37,530 nucleotides of DNA from a virus: positions 1-37,530 of IMG/VR virus record IMGVR_UViG_3300044631_001340; one strand, written 5' to 3'. Every line of letters starts with the position of its first letter. Position 1 is the stretch's first letter. Positions 17,115 through 28,584 of the stretch are shown in pieces. The translations under genes were made by a program, and so were the position numbers. The notes beneath the pieces are model-generated. The model saw only the letters and a program-made list of their open reading frames with translations, was not told where the DNA came from and made no database searches.

Positions 17115-18077
17115 TCAAAAGTAAAAGCGCAGGACCGCGAAGCCGTTGCCGCCGGCGCCGGGATTGCTTCCGGTTGCACCGCCGCCGCCGCCGCCGCCGT
17201 TGCCACCAGCGCCGCCGTTGCTACCACTTCCGGCAGCGCCAGCGGCGAGCAAGCCACCGCCACCGCCACCGCTGCTGGTGCCGCTACCGCCGCCGGAAAA
17301 GCCTGTAAACCCCCAAATCGATACGGAGGCCAGAGACCCGCCAACGTTTGGGGTTGTGCCGCTACCGCCGCCGCCGCCTAAAGATCCTGCCGCTGCGGCG
17401 CCGTTACCGGATGCGCCACCGCCGCCGCCATACCCCGGCGTAGTAGTTGTGCCTGTTGATCCGGCGCCGCCAGATCCGCCGCCGCCACCGCCGAATGATC
17501 CGTGACTGCCGCTCGATCCGTTGTTGCCCGCTCCGCCAGCGCCAGCGCCCGCAACGCCGCCGGTGCTGCCGCCGATCCGGCCTTCCTGCGGATACGCCGA
17601 CCACAGCACGCGCCCGATCGGCGGAGCGCCGCCCATGCCGCCAGAGCCATTGTTGGCAGAGGCGCCGCCACCGCCGCCACCGCCTGCGCGGCCGGTCTGG
17701 GCTTGGAAATTGGTTCCGCCGCCACCACCGCCACCACCGCCGACTTCGGCATAGCGTGTGCCGCCAGATGTAATAGAAGTTGGCGAGCCGTTGGCGCCGG
17801 GGTCACCGGCCGCGCCGCCCGCACCGATCACAACTTGCAGCGGCTGGCCTGTAACCGGAATTTCGATGACCGCAGCGCCGCCGAAGCCGCCGCCGCCGCC
17901 GTAAGCTCCACCGCCCGAGCCACCGCCGCCGCCACCGCCCACGAGCAGCGCCTCGATGCGCTTGACGCCGGCCGGCACGGGTACGGTGCGCGACGTGGAG
18001 ATGACGCCGGACTGGACGAAGCGCGAGACGGAATCGCTCACGGTGCCGGGGATTCCGGCGAAGGTACCGGGGTTCAT
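17115..18077 (-). CDS. Glycine-rich adhesin-like tail protein
   Basis: A 320-residue protein. After a short beta segment (RTVPVPAGVKRIEALLVGGG) come many glycine runs, up to nine in a row, separated by short polar loops, and a C-terminal GNGFAVLRFYF. This is the glycine-rich domain found in phage receptor-binding proteins, where glycine-rich strands can pack as polyglycine-II helices with exposed loops that contact the receptor (as in T-even-type gp38 adhesins). Fold is inference. The start overlaps the upstream stop as ATGA. The DNA consists of long CCG/GCC triplet runs, which are prone to slippage. Confidence 0.72.
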   Translation of the reverse strand: MNPGTFAGIPGTVSDSVSRFVQSGVISTSRTVPVPAGVKRIEALLVGGGGGGGSGGGAYGGGGGFGGAAVIEIPVTGQPLQVVIGAGGAAGDPGANGSPTSITSGGTRYAEVGGGGGGGGGTNFQAQTGRAGGGGGGGASANNGSGGMGGAPPIGRVLWSAYPQEGRIGGSTGGVAGAGAGGAGNNGSSGSHGSFGGGGGGSGGAGSTGTTTTPGYGGGGGASGNGAAAAGSLGGGGGSGTTPNVGGSLASVSIWGFTGFSGGGSGTSSGGGGGGLLAAGAAGSGSNGGAGGNGGGGGGGATGSNPGAGGNGFAVLRFYF

Positions 18078-18460
18078 CAGAAGTCCCCTGCGCGGGTCAC
18101 GAGCACGTTGAAGGTTTCGCTGTTGTTGGTCGACGCGCGGAGCGACCAGCCGTTCGGCAGCACGATCGCCTGGTTGAGCAGCGTCGTGCTCCACGCCTCA
18201 ACCGTCGTCGACGGCGTGACTGCGGTCACGAGGTTTTCGGCGAGCAGACGCGCGTTGGTCCCGTCGTGGACGAAAAGCCGCACGACGCCGGCAGTCGTGG
18301 TGCCGGTGGCCTGAATCTTGATGTCGTCGATCCGCGAGCCCGAGCTGCCCGCCGTGAAGATCGTGGCAAGCGTGCCGGTTCCGTCGCGGTTCGTGTTGGC
18401 GACGGAGACCTGACCGACCGCAGCGCGGGGCGTGGATGCGTACTGTGCTTGAACTGCCAT
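18077..18460 (-). CDS. Small beta-rich virion-associated protein
   Basis: A 127-residue protein (MAVQAQYASTPRAAVGQVSV...) rich in Thr, Ser and Val with alternating beta segments (RIDDIKIQATGTTTAGVVRL, FNVLVTRAGDF). It lies between the tail fibre and the glycine-rich adhesin and is probably structural. GAGGAG lies six bases before the ATG at 18460. The stop overlaps the adhesin start. Confidence 0.65.
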   Translation of the reverse strand: MAVQAQYASTPRAAVGQVSVANTNRDGTGTLATIFTAGSSGSRIDDIKIQATGTTTAGVVRLFVHDGTNARLLAENLVTAVTPSTTVEAWSTTLLNQAIVLPNGWSLRASTNNSETFNVLVTRAGDF

Positions 18461-19589: not shown

Positions 19590-21542
19590 CTACTGCGACG
19601 CGGCCGCAGACGACCCGCGCAGAATCCTCAACAACGCATCCTGTTCCGCCGTCAGCGGCTGCCCCGAGCGCTCGAGCTGCTCGAGGATTCGACGCAGCTC
19701 CTGCGGGTTCTGCAGCGCATTGGCGAGCGCCTGATCTCGCTGCGTGTTCGCAAACGCGCGCAGCGCGTCGATGCCGCCACGCGCGACGATCGAGCCCGGC
19801 GTGCCGGCGACGCCGCCGATCACGTCGGCTGCCTGCCCGGCTGCCGCTGCGGCAATCGTGTCGCTTGCAGTGTTGCTGCCGCCACCTGCCGTCGCGGTTC
19901 TCGCAACACGCTGGGTGATGTTTTGCCGGCGCAAGGCCTCGAGGACGGTGTTCAGCCGCTTTTGCGCAGCATTCGAGAGCTGCACGTTGCCGGCGCGATC
20001 GGCGCCGCGATTGATCGCACGGCCGAGCCCAGCCTCGGTGATCTTCGGAACATCGCCCGCCGCGTCCGCAGACACGCCGAGCACGCGGCCGGTGTTGCGG
20101 TCGTAGACCGAGTCGCGAACACGCCCCGCGGCCTTGCTCTGATCGACCAGGCGAGATCCGCTCGCGTAGTCGTCGACAACCTGCTGCCACTTGCCGTCCG
20201 TCGCCCTGTTCAGGATGTAGTCGAGCTGGTCCATCACCTGCAGCCGCATCGGCGAGCTGCGCGGCGCGGCCGTGAACGCGTTCGGGTTCATCGGGCTGAA
20301 CTTCGCGCTGAGGTTGGCGCGGATCTGCTGCAAGTGCGCCGGCGTGTAGGCCGAGCCCGACGCCGACACCCGGTCGATGTCGTTGGCGATCGCTTGCATC
20401 ATCGACCGCACCTGCGGGTTCGACGCCTCTGGAAGCCGCATGGCTTCGTCGAGGTCGCCGCGGAACGCCGCGATGTCCGACCCGAACTTGCTCATGTTGC
20501 TCGCCTCATCGGCGCGCGCGAAGTTGCGGTCCCAGCGATTCGATCGAGCGGTCTTCCGCGGCCCGAGCATGTCCGCCTCGCGGGTCGCGCGGCCGAACTC
20601 GCCGGCCACCGCCCTCGCCTGGTTCTGGTCGAAGTCGTACCAGTTGCCGGCGTTGAGCGTGCGACTGCCGCGCTCCAGGCGCGCGAGGTCGGCGCTGTCG
20701 AGGCGGGCGGCGGTCGTGAGCGGGATACGCCCCTGCGGCCCGAGCCCACGCAGCTGCGCAAGGGTGCGCGAGAGCACGTCCTGCCGGGTCGCCTGGTCGG
20801 CGCCCTCGCCCGCCATCTCACGCACGACTTGCTCCGCAGCGCGCTCCCCGCCGCCGCCGGCCGTCCCCATGCGTCGAACCTGGTTCACGCCGAAGCCGGC
20901 CGCCGGGAGCGCTGCGCCGAACGCGGCCCCCTCGAGGGCGTTATTGAAAGCGCTCTCGCCCTCGACAGTCGGCCGCAGGGCGCCGTACAGGCCGCCAGAG
21001 AGCGCCGCATCGCCGACTAGGCCTGCCGTCCCCAGCTTCGCCGTCGTCGTCGCAGCGGGCGCCATAGCGCGTCCTGCGCGCAGTGCCTGATAGGCACGCG
21101 GGAGAGCAGTACCAGCGCGCATCGCGGTATTGGCGAACGCGCCGGCGGGGACCGCCAGCGTCGGCACGACGTTGCCCGCTACCTGCAGGGCGCCGCCGCC
21201 CGTGGTGTTCTCGGCGAGCGTTTCGGCCACGGCGCGCTCGTCGGCGGCACGGCGCTTGAGCTCTGCGCCCCGCTTGTCGTTGCCGAACAGGTCGTTCCAG
21301 CGCTGCTGGGCGCCCGTGACGAGCTCGGCGGTGCCGGCCCCGTAATTCTCGAGTGCCCGGCGCAGCCAGGACGATTCCTTCGCCCGGCCGCCCGCCATGC
21401 TGCGCATCGTGTTGCGGCGCCACTCGTCGGTCAGCTTCGGCGCGTCGTGCTGCTGCAGCATCCTGCGCAGCTCGTCCTGGGTGATGCCGTCAGGCACCCC
21501 CTCGACGATGGTGCCGTCAGGCATGACGACGTCAACGGGCAT
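19590..21542 (-). CDS. Internal virion/ejection protein
   Basis: A 650-residue, largely helical protein. The N-terminus (VVMPDGTIVEGVPDGITQDE, LRRMLQQHD) resembles a short module found in phage internal virion proteins. Hydrophobic Ala/Gly-rich stretches at about 120-150 and 170-215 are followed by a long charged helical region. Its place after other internal-virion genes and before the fibres suggests an ejection protein that helps DNA cross the cell envelope. No lytic transglycosylase motif was recognised. The ATG at 21542 overlaps the upstream gene by 11 bases. Confidence 0.65.
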   Translation of the reverse strand: MPVDVVMPDGTIVEGVPDGITQDELRRMLQQHDAPKLTDEWRRNTMRSMAGGRAKESSWLRRALENYGAGTAELVTGAQQRWNDLFGNDKRGAELKRRAADERAVAETLAENTTGGGALQVAGNVVPTLAVPAGAFANTAMRAGTALPRAYQALRAGRAMAPAATTTAKLGTAGLVGDAALSGGLYGALRPTVEGESAFNNALEGAAFGAALPAAGFGVNQVRRMGTAGGGGERAAEQVVREMAGEGADQATRQDVLSRTLAQLRGLGPQGRIPLTTAARLDSADLARLERGSRTLNAGNWYDFDQNQARAVAGEFGRATREADMLGPRKTARSNRWDRNFARADEASNMSKFGSDIAAFRGDLDEAMRLPEASNPQVRSMMQAIANDIDRVSASGSAYTPAHLQQIRANLSAKFSPMNPNAFTAAPRSSPMRLQVMDQLDYILNRATDGKWQQVVDDYASGSRLVDQSKAAGRVRDSVYDRNTGRVLGVSADAAGDVPKITEAGLGRAINRGADRAGNVQLSNAAQKRLNTVLEALRRQNITQRVARTATAGGGSNTASDTIAAAAAGQAADVIGGVAGTPGSIVARGGIDALRAFANTQRDQALANALQNPQELRRILEQLERSGQPLTAEQDALLRILRGSSAAASQ

Positions 21543-22575
21543 TGGTGAGATCCTCGAATCGAACGCGGCGGTTGCCGCCGGCCGGCGTGCCGCCGCGATA
21601 AACCGGGTTCACGATGACGCCGGCGGGGTCGAGGCCACGGGCCCGTGCGAGCTCCGTGTACTGACCGGCGGTCGACATCAGCTTGGCTTCTGCCGCACGC
21701 TGATAGAGCTGCGCCAGCCCGTTGATCTGCTGGATCGCGGCATCGTTCAACGGCTCGCCGCGCAGGATGTTGTTGATCAGGTTCTGCGCGCGCCCCTCCA
21801 ACCCCTGCGCCTTGATCACGCGGTCGAATTCGCCCTCGCGGACCACCGAGCCGGGGTCGAGGAACTTGTTCAGCAGGATCACGAGCGACTGCTGCGTGAT
21901 CGCATCCGGCCTCGAGCCGGGCGGTGTCGCCGAGACGATCTCGGTGATCTTGCGCGTCGCGCCAAGCTCAGACTGCAGATCCTTCGTGGCGTTGTCGAAG
22001 TCGTTGCGCAGCTTGTCCTCGGCGCGCCAGGTGCGCGCGTCGTCGGCGCTGTTGCTGCCGCGCGCGCCGGCCAGTGCCATGCGCAGGACCGAGTTGTCTT
22101 CGCGCGCCTGGCGCTTGTCGTCGAGGCCCATCTCGAACTGCCCGAGCTGCATCAGTCGAGCTGCTTCGCGCTCGCGGCTCGCAGACGGGTCTTTCAGCAC
22201 CTGACCGTCGGGGGTAATCGTCGAACTGCCAACCTTCATCGGCTCACGCGCGGCCATCGCGCGCTTCAGGTACTGCCCCTGCACGCCCTCAAAGCGCGGG
22301 CCGGCGTACTGCGCGGCGAGCGCATTCAGCATTGACGCACCGCCCTCGTCCGCCCTCGAGCGAGCGTAGGCCTGAGCCTGGGAGAAATCGTCCTCCTGCC
22401 CGTACAGGTCAAGCGCTTTGCGGATGTTGTCCTCGCCAGGCTGCACCGTGTTCGTGATCGTGCCGCCAGCGCTTTTCTGTCGCGCGCGCGGCAAGAGCGA
22501 TCGCCGCTTGCGCTCGATCTCTTCCGGCGTCTCAACGATCGCGCCGGCCGCCAGCATTTCTTCGTAGAAGCCCAT
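21532..22575 (-). CDS. Internal virion protein
   Basis: A 347-residue helical protein (MGFYEEMLAAGAIVETPEEI...). The part QSLVILLNKFLDPGSVVREG (about residues 229-248), followed by EFDRVIKAQG, is a pattern seen in phage structural and ejection proteins. It belongs to the block 25261-19590 and probably takes part in DNA ejection. GGAGG lies four bases before the ATG at 22575. Confidence 0.65.
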   Translation of the reverse strand: MGFYEEMLAAGAIVETPEEIERKRRSLLPRARQKSAGGTITNTVQPGEDNIRKALDLYGQEDDFSQAQAYARSRADEGGASMLNALAAQYAGPRFEGVQGQYLKRAMAAREPMKVGSSTITPDGQVLKDPSASREREAARLMQLGQFEMGLDDKRQAREDNSVLRMALAGARGSNSADDARTWRAEDKLRNDFDNATKDLQSELGATRKITEIVSATPPGSRPDAITQQSLVILLNKFLDPGSVVREGEFDRVIKAQGLEGRAQNLINNILRGEPLNDAAIQQINGLAQLYQRAAEAKLMSTAGQYTELARARGLDPAGVIVNPVYRGGTPAGGNRRVRFEDLTNAR

Positions 22576-22586
22576 GATCCCTCCGG

Positions 22587-22943
22587 TCAGTACATGGTCT
22601 CTTCGTCGTCGTAGGGGCGCTTGCCGCCCTGCATCGGAGTCACCGGCCGCGTACGCGAAGCACGCAGCATCTCGAGAGCCGTCTTCTGCCGCGCGTTGAA
22701 GTCCTTCATGCCGGCGTCGACCTTGCCCTGCCCCTTGCGGGCCATGTAGGCCTGACCGAGCTGAGCCGCGCCCTGGGCGAGCGACGGCCCGACATAGACA
22801 CGCCCCGCCATCTGACCCTGCATCGGCTGCATCGACTGCTGCCGCAGCGCATCGATCATTGCCTGCTTGCGCGCAAGCTCCTCTTCCTCTGGGCGCATCG
22901 CGCCCATCTGCAAGAGGTAGTCGAACATTTGCGATTCATCCAT
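22587..22943 (-). CDS. Small Gln/Met-rich virion protein
   Basis: A 118-residue protein with an acidic N-terminal helix (MDESQMFDYLLQMGAMRPEE), a Met/Gln-rich middle (RQQSMQPMQGQMAGRVYVGP) and a basic C-terminus. Its place directly after the 769-residue repeat protein, with an 8-base gap and a GAGGT site, suggests a partner or adaptor in the ejection apparatus. No family was recognised. Confidence 0.6.
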   Translation of the reverse strand: MDESQMFDYLLQMGAMRPEEEELARKQAMIDALRQQSMQPMQGQMAGRVYVGPSLAQGAAQLGQAYMARKGQGKVDAGMKDFNARQKTALEMLRASRTRPVTPMQGGKRPYDDEETMY

Positions 22944-22951
22944 ACATCACC

Positions 22952-25261
22952 TCAGAGCGCAGCATAGTTGACGGTCAGGTACCCGCTGGCGTGCCGCTTG
23001 ACGAGCTCGGGGCGCACCGCCGCAAGCTCCTGCGCTATCACACCGCGCTGACGGTAGCCCGCCATGTCGAAGTCGTAGATGCCGACGCCCGTGGCGTGCG
23101 TGCCGACGCGCTTGATCCGGCGCTTGAGGCGGCGGTCGGAGAACGCGAACGGGTTGCCGAGCGCCGCGCTGCCCAGATTGAACAGCCCGCCCATCGTGTT
23201 GCCGAACGACGCGTTGCGCGCGTTCTGAGCGTCGAGCGCTGCCTGGTACTGCATGTTGGCAGCGTTGAGCAGCTGCGGCGTCTCTGCGACCCCAGCGCGC
23301 TGGAACTGCGGCATCTGCGGCATTCCGACCTGCTGACCCGTGATCAGTGCGTTCATTTCGTTCAGCGGCTGCGAGCGTGCCATCTGCTGCTCTGCGATCG
23401 CCTGCTGACGCAGCCGGTTCTGCTGGTCGGCAAACTGCTGCTGCATGTTCCACTGCTGGCTCAGGGCGGCGTTGTCGGCCTGCTGCCTGGCGATGTCGAG
23501 CGCCGACGCCTGCCCCAGCGACTGATTGCGGAACTGCTGCGCCGCCAAGTCCTGTTGGAATGCCTGCCCCGCGCTGCGGTTGAACAGATCCTGCATCGAC
23601 ATGTTCTGGTTGAACAGCTGGTTCTGAGCCTGATTACCAAACTGGCTGGCCGCGAGGTTCTGATTGAACGCCTGATTGGCCGACTGGTTGGCAAACTGGC
23701 CCTGCTGCAATCCCTGCTGGAACCGCTGGTTCGCAGCCTCGTTGGCAAATCGCCCCGCGTCGAGCGACTGATTGAAAGCCTGCCCGACGGCGCGGTTGGC
23801 AAACTCGTTGCCAGCGAGGTTCTGCTGGAAGTCTTGCCCGCGAGCGGCATTCGCTGCCTGTCGCGCCCCCATGTCCTGCTGGAATGCTTGCCCGACGGCG
23901 CGGTTGGCGAACTCGTTGCCGGCAAGGTTCTGCTGGAACTCCTGTCCGCGGGCGGCATTTGCTGCCTGTCGCGTCGTCGTGTCCTGGTCGAAAATCTGCC
24001 GCTGCGCCTGATTGCCGAACTGCCCGGCCTGCAGGTTTTGACCGAACTGCTGGCCGACAGCTTGGTTGGCAGCTTGACGAGCGCCCAAGTCTTGGCTGAA
24101 AGCCTGCTGCGTCGCCTGGTTGGCGAACTGCCCGCGAGCGAGGTTCTGCTGGAATGCCTGGTTCGCGGCCGCGTTGGCGAAGTTGCCCGAGCCGACATCC
24201 TCGTTGAATGCCTGCTGCCGCGAGCCCATCTGCATCCCGTACAGCCGCTGAGCTTCGTTGCCGGCGATGTCGAGCGCGTTGTAGCGCTCGGAGGACTGCC
24301 GGCCGGCGAGGTCGTCCAGCGCGCGCTTGTACGCCTCGCTGCCGCGCTCGAACCCCTGATTGGCGAGCTGCGTCTCGAGGTTGGCCTGCTGCATCTGATG
24401 GACGGGCATCATGCGACCGACAAGATCGGTCGCGACAGAGTCGCGGAACGACGAGTCGAACCCAGGCAACGCGGGGTTGTCGCCCGTGTTCAGCCCGCGC
24501 TGCACCGCCTCGCCCTGCATCCCGCGCACGAGGTTGTTGCCCATCGAACGGAAGTTCGCGTTGACCTGCATCGGGTCGACGCGCGTCTGGACGTTTTGCG
24601 TGTTTGCTCTGAAGCCCGCATCGACGGGGGACGCCTGCGTGTTGAATCGCAGCGCGTTGTTCATCGACTGGAAGTTCGTGTCGACCGGCGAGCCTTGAGT
24701 GTTTGTCCGCAGCGCGCTGATCATCGGGTTGACGCCGCCCTGCAGCGCGGTCTGGTCGATCCCGCCCTGGATGCCCCCGGCGCCAGAGTCGACCGACATC
24801 TGCGGGCCGCTGAAGTTGAACCCGTTCGACAGTTGCTGCTGCGCGACGTCAGTGCTCAGGCCGGCAGAGTAGTCGGCGATGCCAGACATCACGCGGCCGG
24901 GATCGCCGGCAGAAGTCAACGCCGGCAGGTTCTCCCAGTCGAACGGCTTGGAATAGGCATCGTTGACACGACCCATAAACCCCTGCGCGAGGTTGCTGCG
25001 GTCCTGCTGCATCTTGATCTGCGAGTTGAGCGCATCCTGCAGCTGCGGCGTCAGCGTCGTGTTCTGCGTCCACTTCGTCACCTGCTGACCCGTCGCCGGG
25101 TCGGTGCCGACTTCCGTCGACCAGCTTTCGCTGCCGAACGGCGTGTTGATCGTCGGGCGGTTGGCGAAGTTCTGAATGTTCAGGTTTTCTTTCGACGCCT
25201 GCGCCTGCGCCATTGCAGCGCCAGTGTAGTCCGGCGGCGGCGGTGCCTTGCCCTTGCTCAT
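22952..25261 (-). CDS. Virion protein with 18-residue repeats and C-terminal S74 chaperone
   Basis: A 769-residue protein. Residues 1-345 are mixed, with a short duplicated motif ALR-x-NTQ(G/A)SPVD at 183 and 203. Residues 351-584 hold 13 repeats of exactly 18 residues, each with Phe at the second place (352, 370, 388 and so on to 568), pattern AFxQ(N/D)LxxxxFxNxAxxQ. After a Gln/Met-rich linker the C-terminus has an S74 intramolecular-chaperone-like domain from S708-D-R-R-L-K713 to the end (RGVIAQELAAVRPELV, LTVNYAAL). In known S74 domains the Ser/Lys pair performs self-cleavage before Ser; here that would release a 62-residue tail. It is likely an internal or ejection protein. The start overlaps the GNAT gene stop (ATGA). 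Confidence 0.85.
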   Translation of the reverse strand: MSKGKAPPPPDYTGAAMAQAQASKENLNIQNFANRPTINTPFGSESWSTEVGTDPATGQQVTKWTQNTTLTPQLQDALNSQIKMQQDRSNLAQGFMGRVNDAYSKPFDWENLPALTSAGDPGRVMSGIADYSAGLSTDVAQQQLSNGFNFSGPQMSVDSGAGGIQGGIDQTALQGGVNPMISALRTNTQGSPVDTNFQSMNNALRFNTQASPVDAGFRANTQNVQTRVDPMQVNANFRSMGNNLVRGMQGEAVQRGLNTGDNPALPGFDSSFRDSVATDLVGRMMPVHQMQQANLETQLANQGFERGSEAYKRALDDLAGRQSSERYNALDIAGNEAQRLYGMQMGSRQQAFNEDVGSGNFANAAANQAFQQNLARGQFANQATQQAFSQDLGARQAANQAVGQQFGQNLQAGQFGNQAQRQIFDQDTTTRQAANAARGQEFQQNLAGNEFANRAVGQAFQQDMGARQAANAARGQDFQQNLAGNEFANRAVGQAFNQSLDAGRFANEAANQRFQQGLQQGQFANQSANQAFNQNLAASQFGNQAQNQLFNQNMSMQDLFNRSAGQAFQQDLAAQQFRNQSLGQASALDIARQQADNAALSQQWNMQQQFADQQNRLRQQAIAEQQMARSQPLNEMNALITGQQVGMPQMPQFQRAGVAETPQLLNAANMQYQAALDAQNARNASFGNTMGGLFNLGSAALGNPFAFSDRRLKRRIKRVGTHATGVGIYDFDMAGYRQRGVIAQELAAVRPELVKRHASGYLTVNYAAL
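23510..24211 (-). repeat. 54-bp tandem repeats (13 copies) in the virion gene
   Basis: This stretch encodes residues 351-584 of the 769-residue protein as 13 units of 18 codons in strict register. Two double-units (residues 441-476 and 477-494) are nearly identical, consistent with a recent duplication, while the others have diverged. Confidence 0.88.
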
Positions 25262-25668
25262 TGCAACGTCTCCTTCAGGAACCGGCAGTCTTCGCGCCGC
25301 AGTTCAAGCAGCACACAGTCGACGGTCTCCGCAATTTCCTTGAATCCGATCTTCTTGTTGAACCGAATCGCTCGATCGAGGTCGCGCGGCGTCAGTCCGT
25401 AGATGGCGCGCACGCCGACGGTGTCGAACGGGTACGACATCACCGCGCGCAGGAACTGCTTGCTCAGCGAGTGCGCAGAATCGAGCACGACGTGAATGAA
25501 GCACGCCGCAGGCGTCCAACCGTTGAACGCCACCGCGGCGGCAATGGTGCCGTCCTCGCGGAGCGCGGCAATCGTGCGCAGGTCGCTCGACCACGGGATC
25601 TGGGTCTGCTTCGACATCCACTCCCAGATCACTGGCGGCTCACCTGCGATGTCCGTCACGAGTTGCAC
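25258..25668 (-). CDS. GNAT-like acetyltransferase fold protein (gp13-like)
   Basis: A 136-residue protein resembling the GNAT-like proteins found in the internal-virion region of many podoviruses. RTIAALREDGTIAAAVAFNG, CFIHVVLDSAHSLSKQFLRA and LDRAIRFNKKIGFKEIAETV follow the GNAT strand-helix order; the usual acetyl-CoA loop (RxxGxG/A) is not clear, so activity is uncertain. The start is taken as GTG at 25668, seven bases after GAGGT, overlapping the upstream end closely; a longer frame upstream reads as a shadow. Its stop overlaps the next gene (ATGA). Confidence 0.7.
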   Translation of the reverse strand: MQLVTDIAGEPPVIWEWMSKQTQIPWSSDLRTIAALREDGTIAAAVAFNGWTPAACFIHVVLDSAHSLSKQFLRAVMSYPFDTVGVRAIYGLTPRDLDRAIRFNKKIGFKEIAETVDCVLLELRREDCRFLKETLQ

Positions 25669-25670
25669 CG

Positions 25671-26246
25671 TCAGAACCTCATCAGGTCGTAGTCGGGCAT
25701 GTACTGCAGCATCTCGAGCATCGCCGGGTCGATCATGGCCTGCGGCGGCTGCACCGGCGCGGACTCGGGTTGCGACTCCTCCTGCTGCGGCACTTGCTGC
25801 TGCATCATCTCGGACATCCACCAATCCGGCATGATCGGCTGAGAGTCAGGCTCGACCTGATTCATTTCCTGCACGCTTTGCTGCTGCACATCTGGCGTCC
25901 GAAAATCGTTCGGGTTCTGGTTCCAGTTTTGGTTCCAGTTCCAGTTCTGGTTCCAGTTGTTCCACCAGTCGTCAGGCGGCATCGGCGGCGTGTCATCCGG
26001 CGGCGTGACAGGCGGTTCCTCGGGCGGCGTCACCGGCGGAGTTACCGGCGGCGTGACGGGAGGCGGCGTCACCGGAGTTTCCTCGGGCGGCGGCGTGACG
26101 GGAATCGGCGTCGCCGACGTTGCCGTGCGCATCCACGGGAAGTTCAAAGCCTGCGGAGCGCTTGGCATCGTCACGCTCCCGCGCGTGTTTGCGCGCAGCG
26201 CAGCGATCAGCGAGTTGCCCGGCGGCTGCTGCATCATCGGTTCCAT
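25671..26246 (-). CDS. Pro/Thr- and Trp/Asn-rich low-complexity virion protein
   Basis: A 191-residue protein. Residues about 48-85 are repeated VTPP/PVTPP(E) units, followed by a Trp/Asn/Gln segment (DWWNNWNQNWNWNQNWNQN) and a Gln-rich acidic C-terminus. The N-terminus has IAALRANTRGS, similar to ALRTNTQGS in the neighbouring 769-residue protein. ATG at 26246 shares a base with the upstream stop (TGATG); a GTG at 26249 is the longer option. Probably structural and disordered. No family was recognised. Confidence 0.65.
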   Translation of the reverse strand: MEPMMQQPPGNSLIAALRANTRGSVTMPSAPQALNFPWMRTATSATPIPVTPPPEETPVTPPPVTPPVTPPVTPPEEPPVTPPDDTPPMPPDDWWNNWNQNWNWNQNWNQNPNDFRTPDVQQQSVQEMNQVEPDSQPIMPDWWMSEMMQQQVPQQEESQPESAPVQPPQAMIDPAMLEMLQYMPDYDLMRF

Positions 26247-27835
26247 CACATCACCCCGCCCATTTCACTCAAAACGTGGAACGACGCGAACGTCGTGGTG
26301 CCGCCCAAGCCACGGACGCGCATCCGCAGCGACCCGTAATAACCGAGCCCGATCACGCCGAGCCACGTCTCGAACGTGTTGCTCGAGTAGCCCCAGCGCG
26401 CAAGGTTCCAGATCCCCTCGTCCCATTCGTCGCGCGCTTCGGCCGTGAACGACGGCGCGCCGGCAACCCCGCCGAAGCTGTACTGCGTGTTGAGCCGCAC
26501 CTTCAGCGACGGCGGCTGACGCGCGATGAACACCGGCCGAACCATCGTGAACCGCTTGAGCTGGCCCGGCGTGCCGAAGGCGTTGAAGCAGGTCTGCACC
26601 TCGCCATCCACCGCGAAGCCGCCGCTGCCATCGACCGCGACGCCGTCCAGCTCGCCCAAAAACCCCTTGGCAACGCGGCGGTCATCCGTCGCGAAGTACA
26701 GCTGCCCGTTGAGCATCGCGGTCGCGACCATCGGAATGCCCGTCAGCGTGCACCAGGCGCCCGTGTTGATGTTCATCGCGAACTGCTGGTAGGTGCCATC
26801 GAGCAGCGGGAGCTTGATGACGAGCACGTCGCTGTTGGGGACGAGGTAAACGTCCCAGGCGACCGCGGTGCGCAGCTCGCTCACGATCGGCGCCAGCACC
26901 GTCTGGATCTTCTGGGCGGGGCCGGGCTGGATCTCGCTGAACTGCCCGTTGACGAGTCGAGACATCGGCACGATGCCGAGCTCGGACAGGATCATCACGT
27001 CGCCGCCGAAGTTAGTGAAGAACCGGCCGTTGAGCGGCACCGGACCGACGTACCAGACGCCGCGCAGCGCGAACGTCGAGGCGTTCGAGGGGTCGGTGCC
27101 CTGCCAGACGCTGACGTCGCCCTGACTGCCGACCGCGACCAGGTAGTCGTCGATGCCGGTGCCGGCGTCGAGCGTCCAGTTGATCACGGCGCGCATCGAG
27201 CCACCGTTGCGCATCGTCGCTCCCATCGGGAACTCGGACGCGGTGCCGGTGATTGCGTTGACCGTCGTCAGGTAGTACACGCTCGAGCTGTTCTGCACCG
27301 TGAAGAACACGCGGTTCTTCCAGACCGCCACCGAGGTCGGATTGGCGGGCAGGCCGGTGACCGTCTGCTGTGTCCAGCTCGTGCCGTTGTACGTCCAGTA
27401 ACCCGCGCCGGGGCTCACGGCCAGCAGGAAGTTTCCTGACGTCGTGGAGAACTGCGCGGTGCTCCACAGGTTCGCGGTGCTTCCCGTCGTCGACTGCGAC
27501 ACCGCCGGCGTGGCGGTCGTCACGTCGTAAATGTTGCCGGCCGCGGCGGCGAAGACCTTGCTGCTTGCCGGGTTCGGCGCGTTGTAGCTGAAGACTGAGC
27601 CGATATCGTTCGCGAGCGCGCTGCTGGTGTGGTATTGCCAGCCCTTGCGCAGCTCGGCGCCCGTCTGTTTCGGGATGAAGTTGCGCATCACCAGCGCGTC
27701 CGTCACAGCCATGTTGCTGATCGGATCTCGATAGTTGAGCCCGCCCACCGGCGCGGGCGAGACGATCAGCTGCGCGCTCTGCGCGGCTGCGGACAGTCGC
27801 GGCGACTTGAACTGCTTGATCGGGATCAGCGGCAT
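26246..27835 (-). CDS. Tail tubular/nozzle protein
   Basis: A 529-residue protein, probably the tail tube (nozzle, gp12-like or P22 gp10-like). It begins RLSAAAQSAQLIVSPAPVGG, LNYRDPISNMAVTDALVMRN, a typical start of this family, and continues with repeated beta blades (GTSWTQQTVTGLPANPTSVA, VWKNRVFF). It directly follows the adaptor gene with a TGATG overlap. A normal length for such tail proteins; role inferred from order and pattern. Confidence 0.82.
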   Translation of the reverse strand: MPLIPIKQFKSPRLSAAAQSAQLIVSPAPVGGLNYRDPISNMAVTDALVMRNFIPKQTGAELRKGWQYHTSSALANDIGSVFSYNAPNPASSKVFAAAAGNIYDVTTATPAVSQSTTGSTANLWSTAQFSTTSGNFLLAVSPGAGYWTYNGTSWTQQTVTGLPANPTSVAVWKNRVFFTVQNSSSVYYLTTVNAITGTASEFPMGATMRNGGSMRAVINWTLDAGTGIDDYLVAVGSQGDVSVWQGTDPSNASTFALRGVWYVGPVPLNGRFFTNFGGDVMILSELGIVPMSRLVNGQFSEIQPGPAQKIQTVLAPIVSELRTAVAWDVYLVPNSDVLVIKLPLLDGTYQQFAMNINTGAWCTLTGIPMVATAMLNGQLYFATDDRRVAKGFLGELDGVAVDGSGGFAVDGEVQTCFNAFGTPGQLKRFTMVRPVFIARQPPSLKVRLNTQYSFGGVAGAPSFTAEARDEWDEGIWNLARWGYSSNTFETWLGVIGLGYYGSLRMRVRGLGGTTTFASFHVLSEMGGVM

Positions 27836-28584
27836 CAGCTACCGAACCCCGTGTCTGGCGTGTTGCCGAACGGCGTGATGAACGGGAATCGGAACTCCCG
27901 CGCTGCGGTCAGCACCGGCGATCCTTTCTCGTTCCCCTTGCGGTTTTCGAGGTTGACGGTGAAGTCGCGCATCGCTGCGCTCGAATCCAGCCCCTTCATC
28001 TCGAGCCACTTGGCGCGCGCCAGCAGCGTCATCAGGTGACTGTCGAGCAGGATGACGTCGCCGTTCTTGGTCGCGCGGTTCTTGTAGGTGGTCGTGACAT
28101 CCTGGTCGCGCACCCATGCGACCGACTGGTAAAAGAACGAGAGGGTCTGGGCGGCCGTGGGTGGCGACAGGATGTAGATCTGGTTGCCGCGCACCTGCCA
28201 ATAGAAGGACAGGGTCGGCAACGTCTGGCGGATGAGCAGCTGCTGCCACATCTGCGGAGAGATGGGGCCGACAGCAGGCCACTGCATCGTCGAGTTCCAC
28301 TGCGTCTGATCAGTGAACTCGTAGAAGTCCTCGGGAAGATCGAACCCGCGCTCGGATTCGCCAGGCGTGCTTGCAGACACGCTGATGGTGTGGCGCTTCG
28401 TCAGCTCCTGCCAATCGTGGAGCGACAGCATATCGACGCCGGCCAGATTGACAGCCTGCACCATCTGCTGGATGGACGGGTCTTGCGATCCCGCCGGGTC
28501 AGACGGGGTCGGGTAGCTCACCAGCGCGGCGACGTTGCGGACGATTGCCGACAGCGAACTTTCGTCGACGAGCTGGAAAGCCAC
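27835..28584 (-). CDS. Tail adaptor (head-tail connector) protein
   Basis: A 249-residue protein of the gp11/gp4-like adaptor type: N-terminal helix with VDESSLSAIVRNVAALVSYP, then DFYEFTDQTQWNSTMQWPAV and RGNQIYILSPPTAAQTLSFF, seen in podovirus tail-tubular A or adaptor proteins. It would attach the tail to the portal ring. The start is GTG at 28584 with GAGGT four bases before it. Confidence 0.78.
   Translation of the reverse strand: MAFQLVDESSLSAIVRNVAALVSYPTPSDPAGSQDPSIQQMVQAVNLAGVDMLSLHDWQELTKRHTISVSASTPGESERGFDLPEDFYEFTDQTQWNSTMQWPAVGPISPQMWQQLLIRQTLPTLSFYWQVRGNQIYILSPPTAAQTLSFFYQSVAWVRDQDVTTTYKNRATKNGDVILLDSHLMTLLARAKWLEMKGLDSSAAMRDFTVNLENRKGNEKGSPVLTAAREFRFPFITPFGNTPDTGFGS

Follow-up and report, generated by a model that had tools for sequence, protein, structure and literature searches.

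Across the family of P0001, a predicted virion structural protein of 769 residues, two distant repeat arrays gain and lose units together, and this coupling, as read from sequence, suggests a rod that is folded back on itself as a hairpin and grows in fixed steps. The arrays flank a conserved middle domain of 98 residues; their lengths are quantised, they change in lockstep and they have done so repeatedly in the phylogeny. We assign a probability of about 0.6 to the whole reading, in which P0001 would be a length-adjustable hairpin rod, ejected or exposed at infection, in the virion of a P22/Mx8-type short-tailed phage. The gene and its neighbours occupy the following positions in the window (the whole 37,530-nt stretch of viral DNA analysed).

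27835–28584, minus strand: head–tail adaptor gene (Pfam SU10_adaptor, phrog_6013)
26246–27835, minus strand: tail nozzle gene, P22 gp10-like, tubeB (phrog_5107; ctMlz233 homologue; phiGT1 synteny)
25258–25824, minus strand: GNAT-like gene that probably corresponds to P22 gene 14 / T7 gene 13 (phrog_4470; literature; phiGT1_16)
22952–25261, minus strand: P0001, coding sequence of the whole proposed rod protein, 769 aa (open frame; phrog_6121 virion structural protein, E 1.9e-50)
24923–25261, minus strand: N-terminal fixed domain, residues 1–113, predicted helix, beta hairpin, helix (family conservation; AF2 secondary structure)
24503–24922, minus strand: N-arm, 10-residue repeat array, residues ~114–253, 14 steps (length of 10 per 18-aa unit; composition)
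24611–24730, minus strand: N-arm 20-aa duplication, residues 178–197 against 198–217 (68% nt, 60% aa identity)
24209–24502, minus strand: middle fixed domain, residues 254–351, helical hairpin at the proposed rod tip (conserved; AF2)
23453–24208, minus strand: C-arm, residues 352–603, made up of 14 18-aa units (sequence self-comparison; Asn12 in family units)
23777–23992, minus strand: duplicated 36-aa (108-bp) block, residues 424–459 and 460–495 (TRF; unit identities)
23141–23452, minus strand: C-terminal fixed domain, residues 604–707 (family conservation)
22952–23140, minus strand: residues 708–769 and stop, predicted intramolecular chaperone domain of the Peptidase_S74 family, SDRRLK motif (Pfam 3.5e-5, above cut-off)
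19590–22943, minus strand: three following genes (118, 347 and 650 aa), in the slot of further ejection/internal virion proteins (gene order)

Two repeat arrays that change length together

The 18-residue periodicity of the C-arm is well above chance: the self-identity of the P0001 protein is 0.42, 0.50, 0.40 and 0.41 at lags of 18, 36, 54 and 72, and at most about 0.24 at any other lag tested (9–74). The preliminary description had placed a recent duplication within the 54-bp repeat array at 23783–23990. A duplication is present there (residues 424–493 of the minus-strand ORF 22952–25261; TRF period 108 bp, 1.9 copies, 89% matches, 23774–23973), but the duplicated piece is a two-unit block, residues 424–459 against 460–495, rather than one 54-bp unit. 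Units 442–459 and 478–495 are 100% identical in protein and 90% in DNA, units 424 and 460 are 72% (aa) and 79% (nt) identical, and most other unit pairs have diverged to ~40–70% nt, as described. Two strings were said to occur twice each; FQQNLAGNEFANRAVGQ does so, at 442–458 and 478–494, but the exact GARQAANAARGQ is found once only, at 465–476, the corresponding second copy being TTRQAANAARGQ. Changes had also been thought to be confined to third positions. This holds for the best 84 nt (28 codons; 431–458 against 467–494), where all nine differences are at third positions (eight synonymous codons, one nonsynonymous), but the full 108-nt copies have 16 differences and five nonsynonymous codons. 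The duplication is recent only relatively, as 9 of the 28 codons already differ at the third position.

A second array of 10-residue repeats in the same protein (residues ~114–253), with its own weaker 20-aa duplication, had been overlooked. It is rich in Gly, Thr and Val, contains some Pro and is predicted to be coil. In P0001 the N-arm duplication looks older than that of the C-arm (68% versus 85% nt); in the relative L003, copies in both arms are ~75–83% nt identical, so the duplications in its two arms appear similar in age.

Relatives were collected as the best 80 of 156 and the best 80 of 335 matches, two overlapping sets, and the 99 distinct proteins with all three anchor matches were measured; incomplete contigs such as L052, L063, L080 and L089 and array-free Mx8 (L011, L013) fall outside the 99. 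Among the matches listed, array length fits the form 18n + constant for 96 of the 99 proteins, as did the array gap for 58 of the 60 distinct proteins of the first, smaller set. Unit number is thus not constant among relatives but spans n 0–15, and it changes in whole 18-aa steps, as had been anticipated. Long rods (n ≥ 5) have odd n in all 19 distinct proteins among the matches listed, so that the practical length step there is two units.

The N-arm grows by 10 residues for each 18-aa unit of the C-arm: the length of its gap lies within 3 residues of 10(n+1) in 95 of the 96 in-phase proteins among the matches listed, the exception being L156 (n 0, N-gap 20), which is uncoupled. Regression over the first set gives N-gap = 10.03n + 10.4 (r 0.9998, matches listed). 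Independent phylogenetic contrasts, computed on a tree of 58 proteins from the best-80-of-156 set only, give a slope of 9.996 and r 0.9996 (57 contrasts, matches listed), and the fewest changes of n on the fixed-part tree number 22 among the same matches. Near-identical pairs carry paired indels, of 20 + 36 residues in L021/L029 and 31 + 54 residues in L028/L036. Since each unit is matched by 10 N-arm residues, the 18-aa array is half of a composite repeat and does not vary on its own, as the preliminary description had assumed.

In the 181 distinct 18-aa units from family proteins with n ≥ 3 (matches listed), Asn12 is present without exception and proline is absent from all 3258 residues. AF2 predicts this array as mostly helix, at low confidence; together with the lack of proline, this makes a step of ~27 Å sound. 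The earlier idea that rod length changes by one helix segment at a time therefore stands for the 18-aa quanta and the ~27 Å, but not for the co-changing N-arm or the two-unit step of long rods. Both AF2 models score poorly (pLDDT 54 and 65, pTM 0.23 and 0.28). The middle-domain block of the model of relative L043 has pLDDT 79–93 over residues 171–240. With low confidence and the N-arm left as coil, arm packing is invisible in them. Sequence matches to the PDB included none of significance (best E 0.35, to an S74 fibre end, and another at E 0.82). With the low-confidence models as queries, Foldseek against the PDB gave a best E of 1.3 and VIA-align a best Z of 7.9, for a designed helical bundle; flagellar rod proteins (Z 5.8, all Z < 8) were not taken as homology.

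Possible place of the proposed rod in the virion

The order adaptor, nozzle, GNAT-like gene (P22 gp14 / T7 gp13), P0001 gene, internal proteins is that found around P22 gp7 / T7 gp14 (IVPB), and because its gene occupies the slot of these ejection proteins we would expect P0001 to be ejected or exposed at infection; the length of the rod would then set the reach of the delivery device. For the gene that corresponds to the GNAT-like one in phiGT1/Mx8-type phages, PMC10386132 gives P22 gene 14 as a homologue and T7 IVPA as a more remote one, and phiGT1_16 is annotated likewise. The nozzle homologue in ctMlz233 is annotated as phage stabilization protein and the syntenic phiGT1 gene as tubular tail B. 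Between the nozzle and GNAT-like genes lies a Pro/Trp/Asn-rich frame of 192 aa (25671–26249). Downstream of P0001 the 347-aa protein matches phrog_13634; roles for the three following genes are putative.

Proteins of Mx8, Rhizobium, Microcystis and ctMlz233 also match phrog_6121. Relatives in this family are encoded after the nozzle gene and, where annotated, the GNAT gene, as in the P0001 phage; Mwe-JY13 has no GNAT gene annotated between the nozzle gene and the P0001 homologue. The S74 proteins of Mx8 (p54), phiGT1 (gp17) and Rhizobium phage share the fixed N-terminal, middle and C-terminal parts of P0001, and by inspection of alignments the homologues of Mx8, phiGT1, RHph_I3_18, Mwe-JY13 and ctMlz233 (303–342 aa) contain neither array. 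An S74 domain is found in Mx8, RHph_I3_18 and phiGT1, falls below the Pfam cut-off in Mwe-JY13 and is absent from ctMlz233. A Stenotrophomonas BUCT555 protein (451 aa) is a distant relative with no array seen. Searched for near-identical DNA, 50,697 phage records gave no match.

P0001 differs from P22 gp7 / T7 gp14 in being far longer, in its S74 domain and in a family length that varies more than twofold; for gp14-like proteins, an excerpt of PMC8954989 gives a size variation below 30%. Its match to the 'DNA ejection protein' phrog_4287 is weak (E 9e-4; E 4.7e-5 for relative L066), no Pfam match to PF25688 or PF24072 was seen to E 0.1, and homology to P22 gp7 / T7 gp14 was not adopted, with hhalign probabilities below 1% from shallow profiles (Neff 1.1–2.5).

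The S74 domain of P0001 scores 24.4 bits against a Pfam cut-off of 22 (E 3.5e-5), and the Ser-Asp-x-x-x-Lys motif at its predicted cleavage site, which we take to be catalytic, is formed by residues 708–713. Among the matches listed, 88 of the 96 in-phase proteins have this motif; of the eight without it, two still match S74 and six do not. S74 domains are usually located in fibres, which speaks against the main reading. Top matches in BFVD were mostly S74 proteins from uncultured phages. Identification as a tail fibre was set aside: the PHROG fibre matches and the best PDB profile match (E 0.35, not significant) are confined to the S74 end and say little about the rod.

A tentative but substantial alternative is that the hairpin rod forms trimers by means of S74 and serves as a tail needle or central spike, mounted on the nozzle outside the virion in the manner of P22 gp26 or SU10 gp18. 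The chaperone domain itself would suit such a part. Asn forms polar layers in trimeric coiled coils, and its place beside the F/L face of the P0001 helix fits such a layer by analogy. Profile scans of ten window proteins gave no match to a needle family, so that no other candidate for a needle is seen. The SU10 needle is likewise a nozzle-bound coiled-coil rod, described in an excerpt of PMC9509320 as a 260-Å three-chain coiled coil held by the nozzle. P0001 resembles P22 gp26 and SU10 gp18, which also belong to short-tailed phages, in that it is probably an oligomeric helical rod and in its comparable range of lengths, but it departs from them in gene slot, in the lack of an HMM match, in the proposed hairpin with its extended arm and in S74. 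The P22 needle gene lies between the nozzle gene and gene 14, whereas the P0001 gene follows the GNAT/gene-14 counterpart, in the gp7 position; P0001 matches no needle PHROG, whereas P22 gp26 matches phrog_1219; and 6 of the 96 in-phase proteins among the matches listed keep the rod without S74.

A further likeness is to tail tape measure proteins built of 11- and 18-residue units: these too have Phe-marked helical units, which are duplicated and lost in frame according to an excerpt of PMC3271669. In P0001 the units are of 18 residues only, a second array is coupled to them, the module is that of a short-tailed phage, and no tail tube gene was seen among the scanned window proteins. The 11-residue or mixed 11-11-18 units of such tape measures do not agree with the 18n + constant rule, which 96 of the 99 proteins listed follow.

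Register of the two arms

In the hairpin model the chain would leave the fixed N-terminal domain and extend outward at 10 residues per step, reverse at the tip in the helical-hairpin middle domain and return as a long alpha-helix that makes exactly five turns (18 residues) per step, ending at the fixed C-terminal part, which bears the predicted auto-processing S74 chaperone. The axial rises would match (18 x 1.5 Å = 27 Å = 10 x 2.7 Å), and with the arms side by side lengthening would need equal axial growth of both. The helix face F1/L5/Asn12 is probably an oligomer core, and the opposite face (180 degrees), F10/A14/Q17/Q3, may pack on the extended arm or a neighbouring helix. Viral fusion proteins, for example, form trimers of hairpins with a leash in the groove, and the likeness lies in an extended chain running antiparallel on helices; P0001, however, is no fusion protein, and both its arms evolve repeat number in lockstep.

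An antiparallel hairpin predicts that duplications lie at equal distances from the tip in both arms. The C-arm duplication of P0001 comprises units 4–7 from the tip, for which the antiparallel arrangement predicts N-arm residues 174–213 and the parallel one 154–193; the N-arm duplication is at 178–217. For L003 the predictions are 184–243 and 144–203, respectively, and a triplication is observed at ~190–253. We also compared 45 non-independent indel pairs (shorter protein n ≥ 3; identity of fixed parts ≥ 0.75, C-arm ≥ 0.6, N-arm ≥ 0.5). In the 13 with a well-resolved N split (N identity ≥ 0.70), which represent a few related clusters and not 13 independent cases, the N and C splits lie within 1.2 units of equal tip distance, and the parallel reading is 2.0–4.2 units off. 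From these positions we infer, with support, that the hairpin is antiparallel and grows by matched duplications.

The arms could instead be adjacent but in different subunits, or parallel, as in a domain-swapped or stacked rod, because lockstep requires no more than arms of the same axial length. Across the 45 non-independent pairs there is a correlation for the parallel reading too (r 0.47, against 0.69 for the antiparallel one), and L017 compared with L018/L019 conflicts with the antiparallel reading, its N split lying 10 units from the tip and its C split 4.0–4.7, at an N identity of only 0.55–0.57. The equidistance of duplications and well-resolved indels from the middle domain makes this arrangement unlikely.

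Probable growth of the proposed rod and its possible meaning

Rods probably lengthen when blocks, mostly of two units (36 aa of helix, 20 aa of strand), are duplicated in tandem and in frame, and unmatched changes are presumably purged by selection. It had been suggested that the array may expand or shrink, and a fast copy-number switch (contingency locus) would let rod length vary within a population. Tandem 108-bp repeats could recombine and n does vary between related phages, but where the fixed parts of two contigs agree at 98% or more, n is the same in all 39 pairs (76 contigs of the best-80-of-156 set with all three anchors found, matches listed), the first differences appear at 97.1% fixed-part identity among the matches listed, the gene is identical over its 2310 nt in the window and in a separate contig, L002, and about one third of third positions differ between repeat copies. 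We see no sign of rapid change and regard such a switch as very improbable.

Neighbouring genes served as a control, not an entirely clean one, through rank correlations of gene length with n that ignore kinship. The 650-aa gene gave 0.64 (14 contigs, 609–650 aa), the 118-aa gene −0.40 (68 contigs, 114–145 aa), the 347-aa gene −0.24 (50 contigs), the nozzle gene −0.06 (52 contigs) and the adaptor gene 0.0 (10 contigs); the Pro-rich frame 25671–26249, compared in 5 contigs only (192–399 aa), gave −1.0. Nothing among the genes with enough rows resembles the lockstep of P0001. An accidental lockstep, in which unrelated flexible arrays drift and are inherited jointly or co-transferred as one segment, could draw on recombination carrying both arrays, on the n common to related phages and on these weak neighbour correlations, but it is scarcely credible against contrasts of slope 10.0 (r 0.9996), a unit number that has changed at least 22 times, nearly identical proteins whose paired indels flank the conserved middle domain and the lack of a comparable link for any such neighbour.

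The broader reading is that P0001 contains a ruler: a non-contiguous composite repeat (10 extended and 18 helical residues) that grows by matched duplications into a digitally adjustable delivery rod, previously undescribed. We rate it a little above an even chance. No published account of the array or the coupling was found among the open-licence papers listed; subscription journals lie largely outside that scope, so this is weak evidence of novelty.

Over at least 22 changes in length among the matches listed, two distant arrays in one protein have kept a ratio of 10:18, and sequence alone gives a structural prediction at the level of register that one cryo-EM map could check. Rod length forms a natural series in the family, running from no rod at all (Mx8 and phiGT1, which have cultured hosts) to ~16 units (~43 nm), so that what sets the reach of the delivery device in a short-tailed phage becomes a testable question; that rod length tunes reach across different envelopes, as first proposed, is a reasonable guess. 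If the ruler reading is true, rod length would evolve solely via matched duplications at two sites of one gene.

The rod gene, its relatives and its repeats

Features of the window discussed here
22952-25261, minus strand: coding sequence (ORF) of P0001, the 769-aa rod protein
P0001 residues 1-113, 254-351 and 604-769: fixed parts (family conservation)
23777-23992, minus strand: duplicated two-unit block of 36 aa (108 bp), residues 424-459 and 460-495 (TRF 23774-23973, 89% matches)
25671-26249, minus strand: 192-aa frame in the slot of the P22 needle gene, flanked by the nozzle and GNAT-like genes (PVTPP repeats, WNQNWNWNQ stretch)
17115-18194, minus strand: tail-fibre-like protein, glycine-rich and repeat-rich (Pfam Gly_rich_2)

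Relatives of P0001, collected by pattern and tblastn searches (best 80 of 156 and best 80 of 335, overlapping sets), have conserved ends and variable middles. The C-arm (residues 352-603) consists of 14 units of 18 aa. The earlier suggestion that this array may expand or shrink is partly supported by counting units (n) in related phages: among the matches listed, 58 of 60 distinct proteins have an array that measures 18n plus a constant between fixed anchors, as do 96 of 99 in an enlarged set where n runs from 0 to 15. Those out of phase come from a MAG contig (L092) and from two distant phage proteins (L010 and L012). Where n is at least 5 it is odd in 19 of 19 distinct proteins, again among the matches listed. 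All array-bearing proteins found among these matches are from uncultured records; the short homologues in the named phages Mx8, phiGT1, RHph_I3_18, Mwe-JY13 and ctMlz233 have, by inspection, neither array. Two contigs, IMGVR_UViG_3300047554_000338 (L101, L112) and 3300043444_000155 (L102, L111), each carry two family copies, of n 2 and n 1, spaced by roughly the length of a phage genome; a concatemer, a chimera or two joined phages are candidate readings.

Rod length is variable on an evolutionary scale, because n is equal in all 39 pairs whose fixed parts are at least 98% identical (76 contigs, from the best 80 of 156 relatives) and a separate contig, L002, is identical to the window across all 2310 nt of the rod gene. 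First differences in n appear at 97.1% fixed-part identity in the same 76 contigs. The preliminary description proposed a recent duplication. The duplication is present, as the 108-bp two-unit block, and its copies are the closest match within the C-arm array, yet they are not young, since the best 84 nt hold nine differences, every one at third positions. The second unit has the same protein sequence in both blocks, with 90% DNA identity; one of the two motifs described as repeated has a single exact occurrence. An 847-aa antisense frame opposite the rod gene (22859-25402, plus strand) is most likely a by-product of high-GC repetitive code.

The last fixed part terminates in a Peptidase_S74 domain. 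Its SDxR[LM]K motif is present in 88 of the 96 in-phase family proteins among the matches listed; of the remaining eight, two retain a Pfam S74 match and six do not. Because six relatives (L022, L027, L031, L035, L065 and L081) keep the rod with the S74 match absent, five ending in GLFGFG-like tails, the chaperone appears to be gained or lost independently of rod length.

Lockstep of the two arms

The N-arm, lying between residues 113 and 254, alters with n, measuring ~10, 20, 31, 40, 50 and 60 residues at n 0, 1, 2, 3, 4 and 5, and ~80, 101, 121, 140 and 160 residues at n 7, 9, 11, 13 and 15. The fit gives 10.03 residues per unit (r 0.9998; 60-protein set, among the matches listed). In the enlarged set the N-arm lies at most 3 residues off 10(n+1) in 95 of 96 proteins among the matches listed; the only clear break in the coupling is L156, with a one-unit-type N-arm and zero array units. 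A tree built on the fixed parts of 58 proteins (from the best 80 of 156 relatives) requires a minimum of 22 changes of n, and independent contrasts give a slope of 9.996 (r 0.9996, 57 contrasts). Between relatives closely similar elsewhere, the N-arm and array differ by 20 and 36 residues (L021 and L029) or by 31 and 54 (L028 and L036).

As a control, neighbouring gene lengths were compared with n, and no step-wise link was found in those having enough rows. Rank correlations, uncorrected for relatedness, were 0.64 for the 650-aa gene (14 contigs), -0.40 for the 118-aa gene (68 contigs), -0.24 for the 347-aa gene (50 contigs), -0.06 for the nozzle (52 contigs) and 0.0 for the adaptor (10 contigs). 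The 25671-26249 frame, with homologues in few relatives among the matches listed, gave -1.0, shrinking as the rod lengthens (about 395 aa at n 7, 239 aa at n 11 and 192 aa at n 13), in only 5 contigs, too few to judge. No second, coupled array is described in the available portions of papers on tape-measure proteins, which have 11- and 18-residue units with Phe/Trp markers (PMC3271669), the SU10 needle (PMC9509320) and ejection proteins (PMC8954989).

Geometry and direction of the arms

The 181 distinct units from proteins with n of at least 3 contain no proline in 3258 residues and have Asn at position 12 in every case. On the same helix face, position 1 is aromatic in 157 and position 5 aliphatic in 179; the opposite face is formed by position 10 (Phe, Ala or Leu), position 14 (Ala) and position 17 (Gln). 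The N-arm is rich in Gly, Thr and Val, with 5% Pro. An alpha-helix rises 1.5 Å per residue, so that 18 helical residues span 27 Å; 10 N-arm residues over this distance would cover 2.7 Å each, as in an extended but tilted or kinked chain. In AF2 models, which are of low confidence, the array is mostly helical and the N-arm is coil, and arm packing was not seen.

Were the chain folded back as a hairpin, with the middle domain at its turn, duplications would lie equidistant from that domain in both arms. By our arithmetic, the C-arm duplication in the window predicts N-arm residues 174-213 (154-193 if parallel), and an N-arm duplication is found at 178-217. In the relative L003, matched blocks of 20 aa and 36 aa have been triplicated independently (residues ~190-253 and 426-533), for which the same arithmetic predicts N-arm residues 184-243 (144-203 if parallel). 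Its copies are ~75-83% identical at the nucleotide level in both arms; those of the window are 68% identical in the N-arm versus 85% in the C-arm, the N-arm copies thus being more diverged. Across 45 indel pairs, split points differ by a mean of -0.06 units when read as antiparallel and 1.83 units as parallel (SD 1.4-1.5). The antiparallel reading is correct within 1.2 units in the 13 pairs with a well-resolved N-arm split, and is contradicted by L017 versus L018 and L019, at low N-arm identity.

Genomic position and role

The structural module is of P22/Mx8 type, with adaptor, nozzle, GNAT-like gene, rod gene, three more genes and tail-fibre-like genes. PMC10386132 describes the phiGT1/Mx8-type counterpart of the GNAT-like gene as homologous to P22 gene 14 and, more remotely, to T7 IVPA. 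Gene order is 4-10-26-14-7-20-16 in P22 and 11-12-13-14-15-16 in T7, and phiGT1 gp17, a P0001 homologue by profile matches, sits between an IVPA-like gene and annotated internal virion proteins; the rod gene therefore occupies the gp7/gp14 ejection-protein place. A search for sequence homology of P0001 to gp7 or gp14 found none. The S74 domain and the Asn face could instead indicate a needle or spike, but the P22 needle slot lies one gene earlier, and we regard this role as the less probable. Some other role is unlikely. We favor P0001 as a rod of the ejection apparatus, with a probability of about 0.5.
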